From Leeuwenhoekiella aequorea (GTDB lineage: Bacteria; Bacteroidota; Bacteroidia; Flavobacteriales; Flavobacteriaceae): 64,000 nt of DNA. Both the position numbers and the translations under genes were made by a program. Location: assembly GCF_004104375.1 (NCBI RefSeq), contig NZ_QOVM01000002.1, positions 1-64,000 of the forward strand, read 5' to 3'. The notes under the pieces were generated by a model. That model did no database searches, was not told the origin of the DNA, and was given only the letters and a program-made list of their open reading frames with translations. Shown here piece by piece: positions 58,703 to 63,391 of this stretch; position 1 is the stretch's first letter, and each line of letters begins with the position of its first letter.

Positions 58703-58892
58703 CCTTAGAATTTGGTGAATTTAACTGGTGTATAAAAAATAGATTACCTAATTAGATCACTTTACCGCTTAACTACACTTTAGCGCAACTCGTCTATACT
58801 AAATTTACGGGCTAACGTTTCATGATGAAATAATGCCATTCTTTTTTGCAACTTTATACTATTAAGTACAAGTTGAATTCACACGCTCTGTC

Positions 58893-59312
58893 ATGAAAAA
58901 AAGAATTTTATCTATTCTTCTTATAGAAGATGATCGTATTGAGGTAATGAAACTGAAACGTGTGTTAAGTAAGAATAACTTAAAACACGATCTGGTTGAA
59001 GCGCGCAATGGTGAGGAAGCCTTAAAAATTCTAGAGGATAGAAGCAATCTTCCAGATATTATTCTTCTTGATTTAAATATGCCAAAAATCGATGGGATTG
59101 AATTTCTCAAAGTCTTGAAAAAAGAGCCTCTCTTAAAATATATCCCTACCATAGTTCTAACTACATCAAATAATCATAATGATGTCAAAGAATGTTATGA
59201 AATAGGGATTGCCGGTTATGTTTTAAAACCGCTTAAATACGAAGATTATGTAGAAAAAATAGAAAGATTGCTGGAATACTGGAGTATTAATGAGGTGATA
59301 CATATTTTATGA
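58893..59312 (+). CDS. Single-domain response regulator (Rcp1-like)
   Basis: The 139-residue receiver has the acidic pair in IEDD (12-13), phospho-acceptor Asp60 in LLDLNMP, LTTSN and the switch-Lys in LKPLK. It has no output domain. The last base pairs overlap the H-NOX gene by four bases (ATGA). It is likely to receive or shuttle phosphate in the relay formed with the H-NOX, kinase, Hpt and LytTR genes. Confidence 0.93.
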   Translation: MKKRILSILLIEDDRIEVMKLKRVLSKNNLKHDLVEARNGEEALKILEDRSNLPDIILLDLNMPKIDGIEFLKVLKKEPLLKYIPTIVLTTSNNHNDVKECYEIGIAGYVLKPLKYEDYVEKIERLLEYWSINEVIHIL

Positions 59313-59866
59313 AAGGAGTAGTATTTACAGAATTTCTCGAGCTAGTTGAAACTAAATTTGGAATCCAGATGGTTGATGATATTATTAAATCTTCTAACCT
59401 AGAATCTGGAGGAGCCTATACCGCAGTAGGAACTTATAAATTTGGTGAGATGGTCTCGCTACTTTCAGAATTGAGTAAACGTACCCAGCTTTCAATAGAT
59501 GATTTACTTTATGTATATGCTCAGCATTTTTTTACTGTTATACAAGTTAGCTATCCGGGATTTTTGAAGACATTTTCAGATCCTATAGAAATGCTTTCTT
59601 CTATTGAAGATCATATACACGTTGAGGTGCTTAAAATATACCCTGATGCGCAATTACCTACTTTTAAAACTCTCGAAAAGACAGAAAATACGTTAACTTT
59701 AGATTATATGTCTAGTCGTGCTATGTATAGTTTTGGTTTAGGATTGATGCATGAGACATTTAATTTTTTCAAAATCGACTGTACGATTAGATTAGAAAAA
59801 ATAAAAGACGACGGAACGCACGTTAGATTTTTTATTAAAGTAAAAAATGGAAATACCAGACCTTGA
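59309..59866 (+). CDS. H-NOX heme nitric-oxide sensor protein
   Basis: The 185-residue stand-alone protein matches the heme NO-binding (HNOB) family over its full length: MKGVVFTEFLELVETKFG, GGAYTAVGTY, the proximal histidine His104 in IHVEV, and the heme-propionate motif YxSxR as Tyr133, Ser135 and Arg137. Aligned by hand with the well-studied Thermoanaerobacter protein, the distal O2-binding Tyr140 falls on Phe142 here, as in NO-selective members. Its 3' end overlaps the kinase gene by 20 bases, so the heme signal most likely controls that kinase. Confidence 0.94.
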   Translation: MKGVVFTEFLELVETKFGIQMVDDIIKSSNLESGGAYTAVGTYKFGEMVSLLSELSKRTQLSIDDLLYVYAQHFFTVIQVSYPGFLKTFSDPIEMLSSIEDHIHVEVLKIYPDAQLPTFKTLEKTENTLTLDYMSSRAMYSFGLGLMHETFNFFKIDCTIRLEKIKDDGTHVRFFIKVKNGNTRP

Positions 59867-62213
59867 AGTATATAAACGCATAATAGAACGGGAGCGTAAA
59901 GCTCGCAAAATGGCTGAGAGTATTCTTGAGGCAAAATCTTCTGAACTTTATAGAACTTCCCAAGAATTAAAACGATCTAATGAGCGTTTGCGGTCCTCTA
60001 TTTATCAAAAAAATTCTGAGCTCAAAGGTCTTTTTGAAAGTCTGGTAGACGCTTATATCGTCATTGACTTAGAAGGCTACATTTTAAAGATGAATGCTGC
60101 TGCCATAAATCTTCTAGGGTATAATTCAGATCAAGAATCGGTGTTTCTTCCGAAGTTAATATTGAAGGAAGATAAGTACAAAGTAATAAAAGGTTTTAAA
60201 GCCTTATTGTCTACAGGTAACATCACCAATTTTAAGGTAACAATTCTCACTAAAAATGATAAGTATTGTAGAATTCATATCAATGCAAGTGTTATTAAAA
60301 ATGAAGAAGGAGAAGCTGTAGCAGCTCAAGGAATTCTAAGAGATATTACTTTTGAAGAAGAAAAAGCGCAAATAATTAGTGATCAGAAAAAGCAGCTCGA
60401 ATTTATTGTAAACAGTTCGCCTCTAGGTATTGCTCTAACCACAAACGGTCTTATAGATAATTGTAATGCAAGTTTTACAAGAATCCTAGGGTATCAAGAG
60501 GATGAAATTATAGGCAAAAGCTTAAAATCTATAACGGTTGCAGCTGAACAGTCTGATTATGATGACAAGAGTAAACAGCTACATAAAGGCGAAATAAATT
60601 CGTTTACTACAACTATAAAATACATCACTAATTTTGGAGAGATTATAACTACTAAAATTAATGTAAGTAGTGTTCAGGATCATAATGACATCACCCTTCA
60701 GCAAGAAGTAATTACTATTGAAGATATTACTAAAGAGCTCTTAGCTCAAGAAAAACTTATTGAATCAGAAAACCGCTTATCAGCTTTAATTTTAAGGCTG
60801 CAAAGTGGGATTTTACTGGAGGATGAAAATAGAAAGGTGGTTTTAACTAATCCGATGTTCTGTGAGATGTTTGGTATTGATGTTAATCCTGAAATGTTAA
60901 TAGGGGCAGACTGTATTAAAGCAGCAGATGATGCTAAAACTTTGTTTAAAGATCCGGATAAGTTTTTAGTTCGTATTTCTGAGATATTAGAAAAAAGAGA
61001 ATTAGTAACTGGTGATGAACTTGAATTGATTGACGGAAGAATTTTACTCAGAGATTTTGTTCCCGTTTATTCAAATGAAAAATACAAAGGACATTTGTGG
61101 AGTTATAATGATATAACGCTTAGTAAAAGGCATAAGGAAGATCTAAGAAACCAAAAAGAGAAATACAGCAATATAATCGCCAATATGAATCTTGGTCTGG
61201 TGGAGACCAATACAGATGGAAAAATTCTATTTGTGAATCAAAGTTTTTGTGAGCAAAGTGGTTATAGCAAACAAGAATTATTAGGCAAAATTGCCAGTGA
61301 TATATTTGTAACTAAAAAAAGTAAACAGATTATTCTTGAAAAATTTAAATCTCGTAAAAAAGGGATTTCAGATTCTTACGAAGTAGAAATAATATCAAAA
61401 GATAGAGGTTTAAGAAATTGGCTTGTAAGTGGAGCTCCTAATTATGATATTCATGGTAACCACATAGGAAGTGTAGGTATTCAGCTTGATATAACAGAGT
61501 TTAAAAATCTTGAAATTCAAAAGGAACTACTCTTAAAAAATCTAGAAAAGAGTAATAAAGAATTACAAGAATATGCACACGTGGTATCTCACGATTTAAA
61601 AAGTCCGTTGCGCAGTATTAATGCACTTGCAAATTGGATAAAAGAAGATAATGCGGCAGTCTTAGATGAGCAAAGTTTAGAAAATTTTGAAATTCTTGAA
61701 AATACTCTGGAGAAAATGGAAAATCTTATTTCAGGGATTTTGAATTATAGTAGTATTCAAATTGAAACTACAAATGATAAAACAACAGACGTATATGATA
61801 TTATTCAGGATATACGAGAACTTATGTTTATTCCCAGCAATATAAGATTAAATGTCGTGACTAAGTTACCTGTGATTAATGTTGATCGAACACGTCTTCA
61901 ACAAGTGTTTCAAAATCTAATTGGCAACGCAATACGATATTGCGATAAAGATAAAGGGCATATCGAAATATCCTATATAGATCGAGGGGATTTCCACGAA
62001 TTTGCAATACGTGATAATGGGATAGGTATTGAAGAAAAATACTATTCTAAGATTTTTAATATATTTCAGTCGTTAACAGATCACGATGATTCAACCGGAA
62101 TAGGATTATCAATTGTAAAGAAAATAGTAGATATGTATCAAGGTAAGATTTGGGTGGAAAGTATTCCGAAGAAGGGTAGTACATTTTATTTCAGTCTTAA
62201 GAAAACGAAATAA
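59847..62213 (+). CDS. PAS-rich cytoplasmic sensor histidine kinase, H-NOX partner
   Basis: The 788-residue kinase has an N-terminal coiled coil (residues 1-60, with RERKARKMAESILEAKSSELY), then four PAS-like domains (about 62-170, 182-300, 308-428 and 435-555), a dimerisation domain with His582 (VVSHDLKSPLRS) and an ATPase domain (NLIGNAIRYC, DNGIGI at 723-728, GIGLS at 751-755). It has no transmembrane helix and no receiver, so it needs separate partners, which flank it. The N-terminal coiled coil is similar in type to that of other kinases encoded next to H-NOX genes. Confidence 0.93.
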   Translation: MEIPDLEVYKRIIERERKARKMAESILEAKSSELYRTSQELKRSNERLRSSIYQKNSELKGLFESLVDAYIVIDLEGYILKMNAAAINLLGYNSDQESVFLPKLILKEDKYKVIKGFKALLSTGNITNFKVTILTKNDKYCRIHINASVIKNEEGEAVAAQGILRDITFEEEKAQIISDQKKQLEFIVNSSPLGIALTTNGLIDNCNASFTRILGYQEDEIIGKSLKSITVAAEQSDYDDKSKQLHKGEINSFTTTIKYITNFGEIITTKINVSSVQDHNDITLQQEVITIEDITKELLAQEKLIESENRLSALILRLQSGILLEDENRKVVLTNPMFCEMFGIDVNPEMLIGADCIKAADDAKTLFKDPDKFLVRISEILEKRELVTGDELELIDGRILLRDFVPVYSNEKYKGHLWSYNDITLSKRHKEDLRNQKEKYSNIIANMNLGLVETNTDGKILFVNQSFCEQSGYSKQELLGKIASDIFVTKKSKQIILEKFKSRKKGISDSYEVEIISKDRGLRNWLVSGAPNYDIHGNHIGSVGIQLDITEFKNLEIQKELLLKNLEKSNKELQEYAHVVSHDLKSPLRSINALANWIKEDNAAVLDEQSLENFEILENTLEKMENLISGILNYSSIQIETTNDKTTDVYDIIQDIRELMFIPSNIRLNVVTKLPVINVDRTRLQQVFQNLIGNAIRYCDKDKGHIEISYIDRGDFHEFAIRDNGIGIEEKYYSKIFNIFQSLTDHDDSTGIGLSIVKKIVDMYQGKIWVESIPKKGSTFYFSLKKTK

Positions 62214-62280
62214 TTAATTAATTCAGATTAAAGTTAGACTGAACTTAAATAGAATTATTAATCTGTTTAGAATATAAACT

Positions 62281-62604
62281 ATGATTACGGAAATCCCAGA
62301 TCTAAACAAGATTAAGCATATAGCAGCCGATAGTAAGGACTTTGAATATGAATTGATAGCAATTTTAAAAGAAGAATTACCGCTAGAAATAAATCAATAC
62401 TATCTGCACCTCAAAACACAGGATTTTATAAAATGTGCTGCAGACGTTCATAAATTAAAGCATAAAATAAGTATATTGAATATGCATATGTCTTATGAAT
62501 TTGCAATTATATATGAGGATGAACTGAAGTTAGGTGACAATAAATCTTCTTTACATTTTGATAAGATTCTAAATGCAATGTCAACCTTTATTTCAAAAAT
62601 TTAA
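62281..62604 (+). CDS. Hpt phosphotransfer protein
   Basis: The 107-residue all-helical protein carries an Hpt-type motif VHKLKHKISIL with the probable phospho-acceptor His57. The residue after LK is His instead of the usual Gly, a minor departure. It lies 67 bases after the kinase and four bases before the LytTR regulator, so it can pass phosphate from the upstream receiver to the regulator. Confidence 0.85.
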   Translation: MITEIPDLNKIKHIAADSKDFEYELIAILKEELPLEINQYYLHLKTQDFIKCAADVHKLKHKISILNMHMSYEFAIIYEDELKLGDNKSSLHFDKILNAMSTFISKI

Positions 62605-62608
62605 TACT

Positions 62609-63331
62609 ATGGATTGTATCATAATAGATGACGAAGCTTTAGCCCGAGCAATTGTGAGCAATCACTGTAAAAAAGCAAATCTCAATTTAGTTGCAGAGTT
62701 TGATAATGCTATTGCAGCTATAAAATTTCTTAATCAGCAGCCAGTAGATTTGATTTTTCTAGATATACACATGCCAGATTTTACAGGATTTGACTTGATT
62801 CAAACTCTAAAAAATCCTCCCAGAATTGTATTGACGACATCAGATCGTAATTTTGCTATAGAGGCTTTCGAATATGAGTGTATTGTAGATTATTTAGTTA
62901 AGCCTGTAGAATTACCACGTTTTTTAAAATCTGTTGAAAAGGCAAAACAAGTTAAACATCCAGTATCTTCCTCTTCTACAAAGCCACTTACCGAGGTAAA
63001 TGAGGTGAAAACCGAAAAGGGTACAGACTTATATGTGAATATTGATAGAAGACTAATTAAAATAAATTTTGATAGCATTTTAATTATAGAAGCTAAAGGA
63101 GATTATATTCTTATTAAAACGGAGTCTAAAAATTATACAGTTCATTCGACGTTGAAGAAAATAGAAGAGAAACTACCAGACAGTAAGTTTTTGAAAATTC
63201 ACCGTTCGTTTGTAATAAACTTCCATAAAATCATAGATATAGAAGATAACAGTGTTCTTATTGCAAAAGACGTAATACCTATAAGTCGCTCAAATCGACC
63301 CATTTTGATGAAGCAGCTAAACTTACTGTAA
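62609..63331 (+). CDS. LytTR-family response regulator
   Basis: From the ATG at 62609 the protein has 240 residues: a receiver with IIDDEALAR, phospho-acceptor Asp52 (FLDIHMPDFTG) and KPVEL, followed by a LytTR DNA-binding domain (about 135-240) with IEAKGDYILI, LKIHRSFVIN and PISRSNRP. It is the probable output of the H-NOX relay. The frame extends 12 codons into the Hpt gene, but the internal ATG fits the family start. Confidence 0.95.
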   Translation: MDCIIIDDEALARAIVSNHCKKANLNLVAEFDNAIAAIKFLNQQPVDLIFLDIHMPDFTGFDLIQTLKNPPRIVLTTSDRNFAIEAFEYECIVDYLVKPVELPRFLKSVEKAKQVKHPVSSSSTKPLTEVNEVKTEKGTDLYVNIDRRLIKINFDSILIIEAKGDYILIKTESKNYTVHSTLKKIEEKLPDSKFLKIHRSFVINFHKIIDIEDNSVLIAKDVIPISRSNRPILMKQLNLL

Positions 63332-63353: not shown

Positions 63354-63391
63354 AAGCTCCAGATCTTAATTAAAGAACTGGAGCTTTTTTA
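63354..63391 (+). terminator. Terminator of the H-NOX operon
   Basis: AAGCTCCAG and CTGGAGCTT pair around a 14-base loop and are followed by a T-run. It closes the transcript after the LytTR gene. The remaining 63392-63580 shows no gene. Confidence 0.8.

Follow-up and report, generated by a model that had tools for sequence, protein, structure and literature searches.

Control of biofilms by nitric oxide (NO) through the sensor protein H-NOX runs mostly by way of cyclic di-GMP (c-di-GMP) (PMC8738867; this and the other papers are cited here for excerpts). Other outputs are also known, namely HnoC in Shewanella oneidensis and LuxU in Vibrio harveyi and Vibrio parahaemolyticus (PMC8738867), and in Vibrio fischeri a relay leads from the kinase HahK through a histidine phosphotransfer protein (Hpt) to SypG (PMC12369376). 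Here, we analyze an H-NOX operon within a 64,000-nucleotide stretch of the marine flavobacterium Leeuwenhoekiella aequorea (contig NZ_QOVM01000002.1, positions 1 to 64,000; hereafter the window). Its five genes encode a stand-alone receiver (REC), H-NOX, a PAS histidine kinase, a free Hpt and a LytTR response regulator. An earlier reading of the letters of the window (the original prediction) took them for a complete NO-sensing phosphorelay with a DNA-binding output, and set this against characterized proteobacterial H-NOX relays, which it believed to end in c-di-GMP enzymes. The latter statement was too strong, given the HnoC, LuxU and SypG outputs. The relay itself has fared better: we consider it likely that the operon is a self-contained NO-responsive phosphorelay, and in most H-NOX-bearing relatives it probably relays a NO signal by way of four proteins to a switch that binds DNA.

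In the mechanism that we favor, NO would bind the heme of H-NOX and alter the activity of the PAS kinase by way of the N-terminal helix of the kinase. Phosphate would be transferred from the kinase to the free REC, on to Hpt and finally to the LytTR protein, and phosphorylated LytTR would bind direct-repeat boxes upstream of its own operon and, in many relatives, also upstream of genes for a secreted surface protein and for polysaccharide. A FIST protein and a short second kinase would feed the same REC-Hpt-LytTR core as a further, optional input, one that was probably lost in the lineage of the window. By analogy with characterized H-NOX proteins, NO probably inhibits the kinase (the sign follows what is described for V. 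cholerae, S. oneidensis and V. fischeri; PMC8738867; PMC12369376), and NO would therefore lower the level of phosphorylated LytTR and the expression of surface and matrix genes. The parts of the operon and its flanks in the window are as follows.

58764..58803, plus strand: candidate LytTR box, two tandem copies 21 bp apart (ACCGCTTAACTACACTTTA, GCAACTCGTCTATACTAAA; 10.3 and 17.0 bits)
58893..59312, plus strand: stand-alone receiver REC, phospho-acceptor Asp60 (98/98 orthologues; Pfam Response_reg 86.7 bits)
59309..59866, plus strand: putative H-NOX heme NO sensor, proximal His104, Y133-S135-R137 (Pfam HNOB 129.1 bits)
59847..62213, plus strand: four-PAS histidine kinase without receiver, His582 (99/100 orthologues, one gap; PAS, HisKA 33.6 and HATPase_c 88.1 bits)
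59847..60032, plus strand: N-terminal helix of the kinase, candidate H-NOX docking element (helix profile scores)
62214..62280, plus strand: 67-bp gap at the site of the FIST gene and second kinase of relatives
62281..62604, plus strand: free Hpt, His57 (92/92 orthologues; AlphaFold bundle model; under the Pfam cut-off)
62609..63331, plus strand: LytTR response regulator, Asp52 (90/90 orthologues; Pfam Response_reg 68.1 and LytTR 68.2 bits)
63354..63390, plus strand: candidate intrinsic terminator read from the sequence, 9-bp stem AAGCTCCAG/CTGGAGCTT, 15-nt loop, T6

All five genes are present and intact on the plus strand where the original prediction had placed them, and the listing of open reading frames (ORFs) agrees with its overlaps of 4 bases between REC and H-NOX and of 20 bases between H-NOX and kinase. 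Pfam gives PAS, HisKA and HATPase_c in the kinase, as expected of the receiver-less enzyme that had been described, and the four phospho-residues that had been named, Asp60, His582, His57 and Asp52, are nearly invariant among orthologues. The last of these depends on the start of the LytTR gene: the ORF as listed begins at 62573, but the homologous start is the ATG at 62609, 4 bases behind Hpt, and counting from there the phospho-acceptor is Asp52. The candidate terminator may close the operon; a promoter and terminator scan of the window reported nothing above shuffled sequences, this hairpin being passed over because the scanner has a loop limit of 8. Contig 2, which begins with the window, belongs to a 3.46-Mb genome that is 99.8% complete, and among named relatives Leeuwenhoekiella aestuarii has the closest H-NOX (73% identity; L162, where L numbers denote loci and G numbers, below, genomes).

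The first line of evidence for the relay is the conservation of its gene order. H-NOX was found in 146 of 397 Flavobacteriaceae genomes, with 150 matches, of which 100 loci, nearly one per genus, were retrieved. With the window, 101 loci were examined and 100 counted, namely 99 relatives and the window; in L120, phmmer gave no H-NOX match at the threshold used, and profile scoring gave a divergent one. The order REC, H-NOX, PAS kinase, Hpt, LytTR occurs in 88 of the 100 H-NOX loci and in 73 of the 80 named ones, including that of Kordia algicida OT-1 (L211), the source of PDB 6BDD (named and unnamed sets share species, and the contig-cut loci L057, L062 and L090 are kept in the denominators). 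Hpt lies beside H-NOX in 92/100 loci and LytTR in 90/100, and neighboring genes mostly overlap or abut (median gaps 1, -4, 1, -1, 0 and 9 bp, where the inner values come from FIST loci). Linkage of Hpt and LytTR to H-NOX, on which the original prediction had staked its relay, is the rule in the family, and this order, together with the near-invariant catalytic residues, supports the relay. A chance cluster can be dismissed, since order and residues are conserved far above chance in loci drawn mostly one per genus, and so can a one-off insertion, the operon being where H-NOX normally sits in the family sample.

The 12 exceptions to the order are L042 and L071 (divergent H-NOX), L114 (REC displaced), the three contig-cut loci, L115 and L117 (REC-H-NOX-kinase alone), L044 (no adjoining Hpt or LytTR; a second relay, L254, lies elsewhere in the genome), and L056, L061 and L075 (Hpt kept, no adjoining LytTR). 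The H-NOX frame of L057 (G049) carries an internal TAG stop, with REC and kinase otherwise kept, and is possibly a pseudogene. Tamlana nanhaiensis has two operon copies about 190 kb apart on one contig (L220, L223), with equal gene lengths and profile scores, the product of either a recent duplication or an assembly artefact. In a draw from the whole phylum, 27 of 395 genomes had H-NOX, 15 of them from the same family; beyond the family, 13 loci were read (L285-L297), and none of them has an Hpt beside H-NOX except L287 (G544), where the seven-gene form, with the FIST pair, is complete.

The distribution of Hpt tells a similar story. Taking E <= 1e-20 as a strong match and tallying co-occurrence by eye from listings, we count such a match to this Hpt in 139 of the 146 family genomes that have H-NOX, compared with 20 of the 251 that lack it. 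No fewer than three of the 139 (G179, G197, G320) carry the strong Hpt at a different locus from H-NOX. Eleven of the 20 Hpt loci from genomes without H-NOX were read (L242-L252), four of them contig-cut. L242, L245, L246 and L249 show the series REC-kinase-Hpt-LytTR with no H-NOX between, L251 and L252 have REC and kinase on the opposite strand, and L250 has Hpt-LytTR alone. Four more H-NOX-less REC-kinase-Hpt-LytTR relays (L253-L256) come from genomes with H-NOX at another locus. Eight relays in all thus lack an adjoining H-NOX, and the core relay can therefore exist without H-NOX beside it. As a side observation, some genomes, including that of Kordia algicida, hold a second relay with neither H-NOX nor box (L253, L254 and L255, as against L211 and L044); these second relays are paralogues with a possibly different DNA specificity.

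Could the operon instead have two parallel outputs? The free REC would then act alone by protein-protein contact, LytTR would receive its phosphate from the kinase or from some other donor, and Hpt would do no more than drain phosphate or serve other kinases. The three loci that keep Hpt without an adjoining LytTR fit this idea, a LytTR orthologue being located elsewhere in those genomes, and the genome of the window offers potential partners in its 21 HisKA matches and two further, weaker Hpt matches. Considering that REC, kinase, Hpt and LytTR stay together in the eight relays without an adjoining H-NOX, and that a free REC and a free Hpt beside a receiver-less kinase are the expected arrangement of a split phosphorelay, we regard parallel outputs as distinctly unlikely.

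A single relay also fits the makeup of the proteins: kinase, receiver, Hpt and output receiver, the parts of a multi-step phosphorelay, are all there with their phospho-residues intact, and phosphate could move His-Asp-His-Asp through the five-gene set. By its sequence the LytTR protein is a response regulator, with an Asp-bearing receiver and a LytTR domain. The identity of Hpt is more contentious. It fails the Pfam Hpt cut-off (14.8 versus 24.6 bits), and its AlphaFold model has no Foldseek match at E 0.001 (the best is 0.038), both of which speak against the assignment. The model is a helical bundle (mean pLDDT 95.3), however, and its 22 top-ranked PDB matches are all HPt proteins (3myf: probability 1.00, query TM 0.75). 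Judged by this predicted structure, the free Hpt has the HPt fold, with a phospho-accepting His.

The H-NOX protein passes its profile test easily (HNOB, PF07700, 129.1 bits versus a cut-off of 25.5) and matches PDB 6bdd over its length (E 3e-72). The close relative Kordia thus provides an H-NOX crystal structure, since 6bdd is Kordia algicida H-NOX according to PMC7356049, though the molecule name in the record reads aldolase. Heme and NO binding by the protein of the window are predicted from the residues that it shares with its orthologues: the proximal His104 is kept in 99/100, Tyr133 and Ser135 each in 100/100, and Arg137 in 95/100. These residues also bear on an alternative in which the relay senses oxygen, CO or redox state rather than NO, with H-NOX as the heme-based sensor of that signal. 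Position 142, five residues past the Arg of the YxSxR motif and presumably the match of Tyr140 in O2-binding H-NOX proteins, is Phe or Leu in 98/100. Simulations of the close Kordia H-NOX likewise indicate an active site that prefers NO (PMC7356049). While heme-free V. cholerae H-NOX responds to oxidation (PMC8738867), and the four PAS stretches of the kinase could sense other cues, a signal other than NO appears improbable to us.

If NO is the probable ligand, the relay has in many relatives a second probable sensor. In 50 of 100 loci, those of both same-genus relatives among them, genes for a FIST protein and a second, short kinase of roughly 350 amino acids (HK2) separate the PAS kinase from Hpt. 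The five-part relay of the original prediction stands, but this arm, found in half the loci, was invisible from the window. No FIST protein was found in the window's own genome, and because both same-genus relatives have the pair, the arm was probably lost in this lineage. The FIST protein tested (L032) scores above both cut-offs (FIST 132.4 and FIST_C 120.1 bits). Against a role in NO sensing, it falls far below the NCBIfam equivalog cut-off for NosP (55.3 versus 450 bits), so that such a role is a lead only. Among the 21 HisKA loci of the window's genome, the best match to the catalytic part of a relative's HK2 is the PAS kinase of the window (199 bits, the next 102), as expected if both feed the same receiver. 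Identity between HK1 and HK2 over a fixed DHp window spreads from 0.03 to 0.60 (median 0.48), the low end probably being mis-registered, and we therefore rely on bit scores. FIST and the short kinase are probably a second sensor arm.

In the six loci of genus g128 (L298-L303), the H-NOX in the operon slot is divergent and reaches 51-72 bits with the family profile. REC, FIST, HK2, Hpt and LytTR have scores like those in the family; they are collinear in five of the loci, and in L303 Hpt and LytTR lie on the other strand. The kinases tested from this genus (L299 and L303) have an N-terminal HNOBA domain (54.7 and 54.8 bits), and the pairing of H-NOX with an HNOBA kinase resembles the arrangement of soluble guanylate cyclase, here feeding the same relay. 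From these loci, the sensor looks exchangeable and the core constant.

How might H-NOX contact its kinase? H-NOX-linked kinases begin with a helix, RxxARxxAExxLExKSxxLY. When a profile was trained on half of these kinases, the held-out half, which is related to the training half, scored a median of 87 bits and a minimum of 39 (n=50), and 10 kinases of relays without an adjoining H-NOX scored a median of 22, the highest being L253 (60; H-NOX elsewhere in the genome) and L251 (55). The profile gave 7.5 bits on 25 HK2 proteins and at most 0.2 on nine kinases beside divergent H-NOX, and its 101 matches among 3,478 neighborhood ORFs are all kinases. We propose this helix as a candidate H-NOX docking element. 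Four of 18 plasmid records with an H-NOX match were also read (L369 from 5545, L370 from 5556, L371 from 6537 and L372 from 5554), and all four H-NOX partners have a similar N-terminal helix: an EAL protein of Comamonadaceae (39 bits) and kinases of Vibrio coralliilyticus (30), Pseudooceanicola (40) and Persicobacter (53). A similar helix on partners of differing output type and phylum would make it a candidate for a general docking element. Our searches of the open-access literature brought up no description of the helix. According to PMC8738867, there is no high-resolution structure of H-NOX with a signaling partner; the helix offers a handle on this contact, an open point in that review.

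At the other end of the relay, the original prediction proposed direct gene control by the LytTR protein, and this part gains a candidate DNA site that is common to the operon and nearby genes. A de novo motif search returned the same 19-bp box, ACCATTCGTC[G/T]ACACTTAA, from the regions upstream of REC (95 loci) and, separately, of the secreted-protein gene. The box is often doubled at exactly 21 bp: a second copy is present in 54/86 loci, with this spacing in 50 of the 54, and the tandem precedes the operon in most loci, with exceptions. LytTR proteins bind direct repeats about two helical turns apart. With a position weight matrix and a threshold of 14 bits, a box stands before REC in 76 of the 87 loci that have LytTR, L106 being one more with a strong box pair inside an over-long called ORF; the figure is 71/79 for named loci and 49/595 for other upstream regions, a set that still includes the secreted and polysaccharide genes. 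Of 171 sites of at least 18 bits in the family neighborhoods, 94 lie before REC, 24 before the secreted gene and 7 before a glycosyltransferase; the rest of the listed sites include 4 before a STAS gene, 3 before a flippase and 17 without an ORF.

The window's own box pair is weakened relative to the consensus. It is the only 21-bp pair in the 64 kb with at least 8 bits in each copy, and single sites of at least 9 bits are no commoner than in controls (the window has 2, its reversed sequence 3 and shuffles a mean of 1.5). The matching pair scores 31.8+22.3 and 25.6+18.2 bits in the two same-genus relatives.

Is LytTR the protein that binds the box? Perhaps the box belongs to another regulator, such as a sigma factor or activator encoded elsewhere, and shares the operon for reasons unconnected with LytTR. 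Several observations weigh against the assignment to LytTR. The matrix was trained on the same REC upstream regions that it scored, and ten LytTR loci stay under 14 bits; L102, L126 and L131 have no box within 1 kb of H-NOX, and with the H-NOX-less relays L249, L253, L254 and L255 this makes seven LytTR relays without a box. The five fully covered loci without an adjoining LytTR are all under 14 bits (L044 11.1, L056 4.8, the rest negative), but four of their genomes (G227, G011, G172, G179) have a LytTR orthologue elsewhere at 300-318 bits, so that the box follows adjacency and not the presence of LytTR; in the fifth, G167, no orthologue was found elsewhere in the genome. For the same reason, we dropped the notion that the box vanishes when LytTR is lost. 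Conversely, L257 has a 15.6-bit box and no adjoining LytTR, the LytTR of that genome being at L256. In the genome of the window, a search with the consensus box gave 3 matches versus 6 in the reversed control, and we therefore claim no regulon for this species, where the relay may act chiefly on its own operon or on sites that have drifted.

On the other side, the same box stands before the operon and before the gene directly behind LytTR, its copies are in tandem at 21 bp, and it is similar to CCGTTCGTC, the core of the site bound by AlgR, itself a LytTR protein (PMC4064291). It is kept in four of the eight collinear H-NOX-less relays (L242, L245, L246 and L256) and in five of the six g128 loci with divergent H-NOX. 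The box thus does not track H-NOX; as far as these sequences tell, it goes with the operon. We consider it likely that the box is a LytTR binding site, and a regulator from elsewhere seems rather unlikely.

If LytTR does bind the box, its candidate targets in relatives are surface genes. A gene for a secreted protein sorted by the type IX secretion system (T9SS) lies behind LytTR in 33 loci, 98-514 bp away in 24 of them and mostly with a box; no such gene lies downstream of LytTR in the window. Examples are as follows.

L333, 1371-3806: T9SS-sorted secreted protein
L070: T9SS-sorted secreted protein with DUF4114
L368, 1327-3933: T9SS-sorted secreted protein with DUF6923

The element TAnnTT[TC]G, which we take to resemble the Bacteroidota -7 box, follows the box by 43-45 bp in 18/27 secreted-gene promoters, as against 0/135 checks at other offsets, a spacing that suits an activator position. 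REC promoters have it at the same distance in only 7/78, a further point against control of the operon through the box. In G125 (L368), boxes precede the secreted-protein gene, a group-1 glycosyltransferase gene and a gene that begins with a receiver (from 17511); a homologue of the last (L336, 2407-3576) is, by Pfam, a fusion of a receiver with a family-2 glycosyltransferase. Genes of this receiver-glycosyltransferase type sit behind a box in L357, L360 and L368, and polysaccharide synthesis could possibly be controlled post-translationally as well as transcriptionally. Strong boxes also precede ORFs of about 100 amino acids (L122 at 6455 and 6914, L089 at 7102, L045 at 7436 and L065 at 7117), possibly small regulated proteins. 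The first flanking cluster by count was set aside, since it proved to be Hpt itself.

Gene content leaves little room for c-di-GMP as the output. Of 349 family genomes, 3 have a GGDEF match over the cut-off (5 have one at E 0.001), and none of the 12 tested for EAL has that domain; the same models find GGDEF in 8 and EAL in 6 of 14 control genomes. The window's own genome has 0 GGDEF and 0 EAL, which rules out a c-di-GMP pathway by gene content, and the five proteins contain no GGDEF, EAL or HD-GYP domain (HD-GYP was checked in those five). Because GGDEF is almost entirely absent, the family as a whole probably lacks c-di-GMP. In a large marine family nearly without GGDEF, H-NOX thus belongs to a complete operon whose output is a DNA-binding protein with a candidate site and candidate targets, and five or seven proteins and one promoter are enough to test every step. 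A broader reading, which we hold tentatively and with some doubt, is that of a modular NO cassette in which a fixed REC-Hpt-LytTR core, acting through 21-bp-repeat LytTR boxes, governs surface polysaccharide and adhesion. One or two sensor-kinase arms would plug into this core. An arm could consist of H-NOX and its helix-docked kinase, of a divergent H-NOX paired with a kinase of the HNOBA type, of FIST and its short kinase, or of PAS alone; the targets would be the T9SS-secreted protein, a flippase-glycosyltransferase cluster and the receiver-glycosyltransferase fusion.

Elements of this organization recur among the described systems. NosP, a FIST protein, and the kinase NahK are encoded by adjacent genes, and a FIST protein is likewise paired with a kinase in flavobacteria; unlike NosP, the flavobacterial protein scores far below the equivalog cut-off (see above), and its kinase is short and encoded within the H-NOX operon. 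The hno systems of S. oneidensis and V. cholerae comprise HnoX, HnoK and the regulators HnoB, HnoC and HnoD. There, as here, the H-NOX gene adjoins a kinase that feeds response regulators, and one of these regulators in S. oneidensis, HnoC, is a transcription factor that feeds back on the hno regulon, but the main output is control of a c-di-GMP phosphodiesterase rather than a LytTR protein (PMC8738867). V. cholerae NosP signaling joins the H-NOX network (PMC8738867). For the flavobacterial operon itself, our searches of the open literature listed no paper (subscription papers were outside the scope), and the nearest precedent is a neighborhood chart for H-NOX sequence group 1, a group whose representatives include the flavobacterium Cellulophaga algicola (spelled algiola there; PMC7108781). 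FIST is listed among the group 1 neighbors (PMC8738867, Fig. 6, section 10); the chart is statistical, and its accompanying text, in the excerpt cited, gives no operon, relay, Hpt or LytTR output, or DNA site. The H-NOX-HqsK-LuxU systems of V. harveyi and V. parahaemolyticus share with this operon an H-NOX that feeds a transcriptional cascade, there through LuxU, but they use a hybrid kinase/phosphatase joined to quorum sensing (PMC8738867). The V. fischeri pathway, from HnoX-HahK through the Hpt of SypF or LuxU to SypG, has the same series of H-NOX-controlled kinase, receiver residue, Hpt and DNA-binding regulator. It differs in that HahK uses its own receiver residue, D506, that the hnoX-hahK operon is apart from the other parts, and that the excerpt mentions no FIST arm; its target, the syp genes for polysaccharide, is of the same kind as the candidate target here (PMC12369376).

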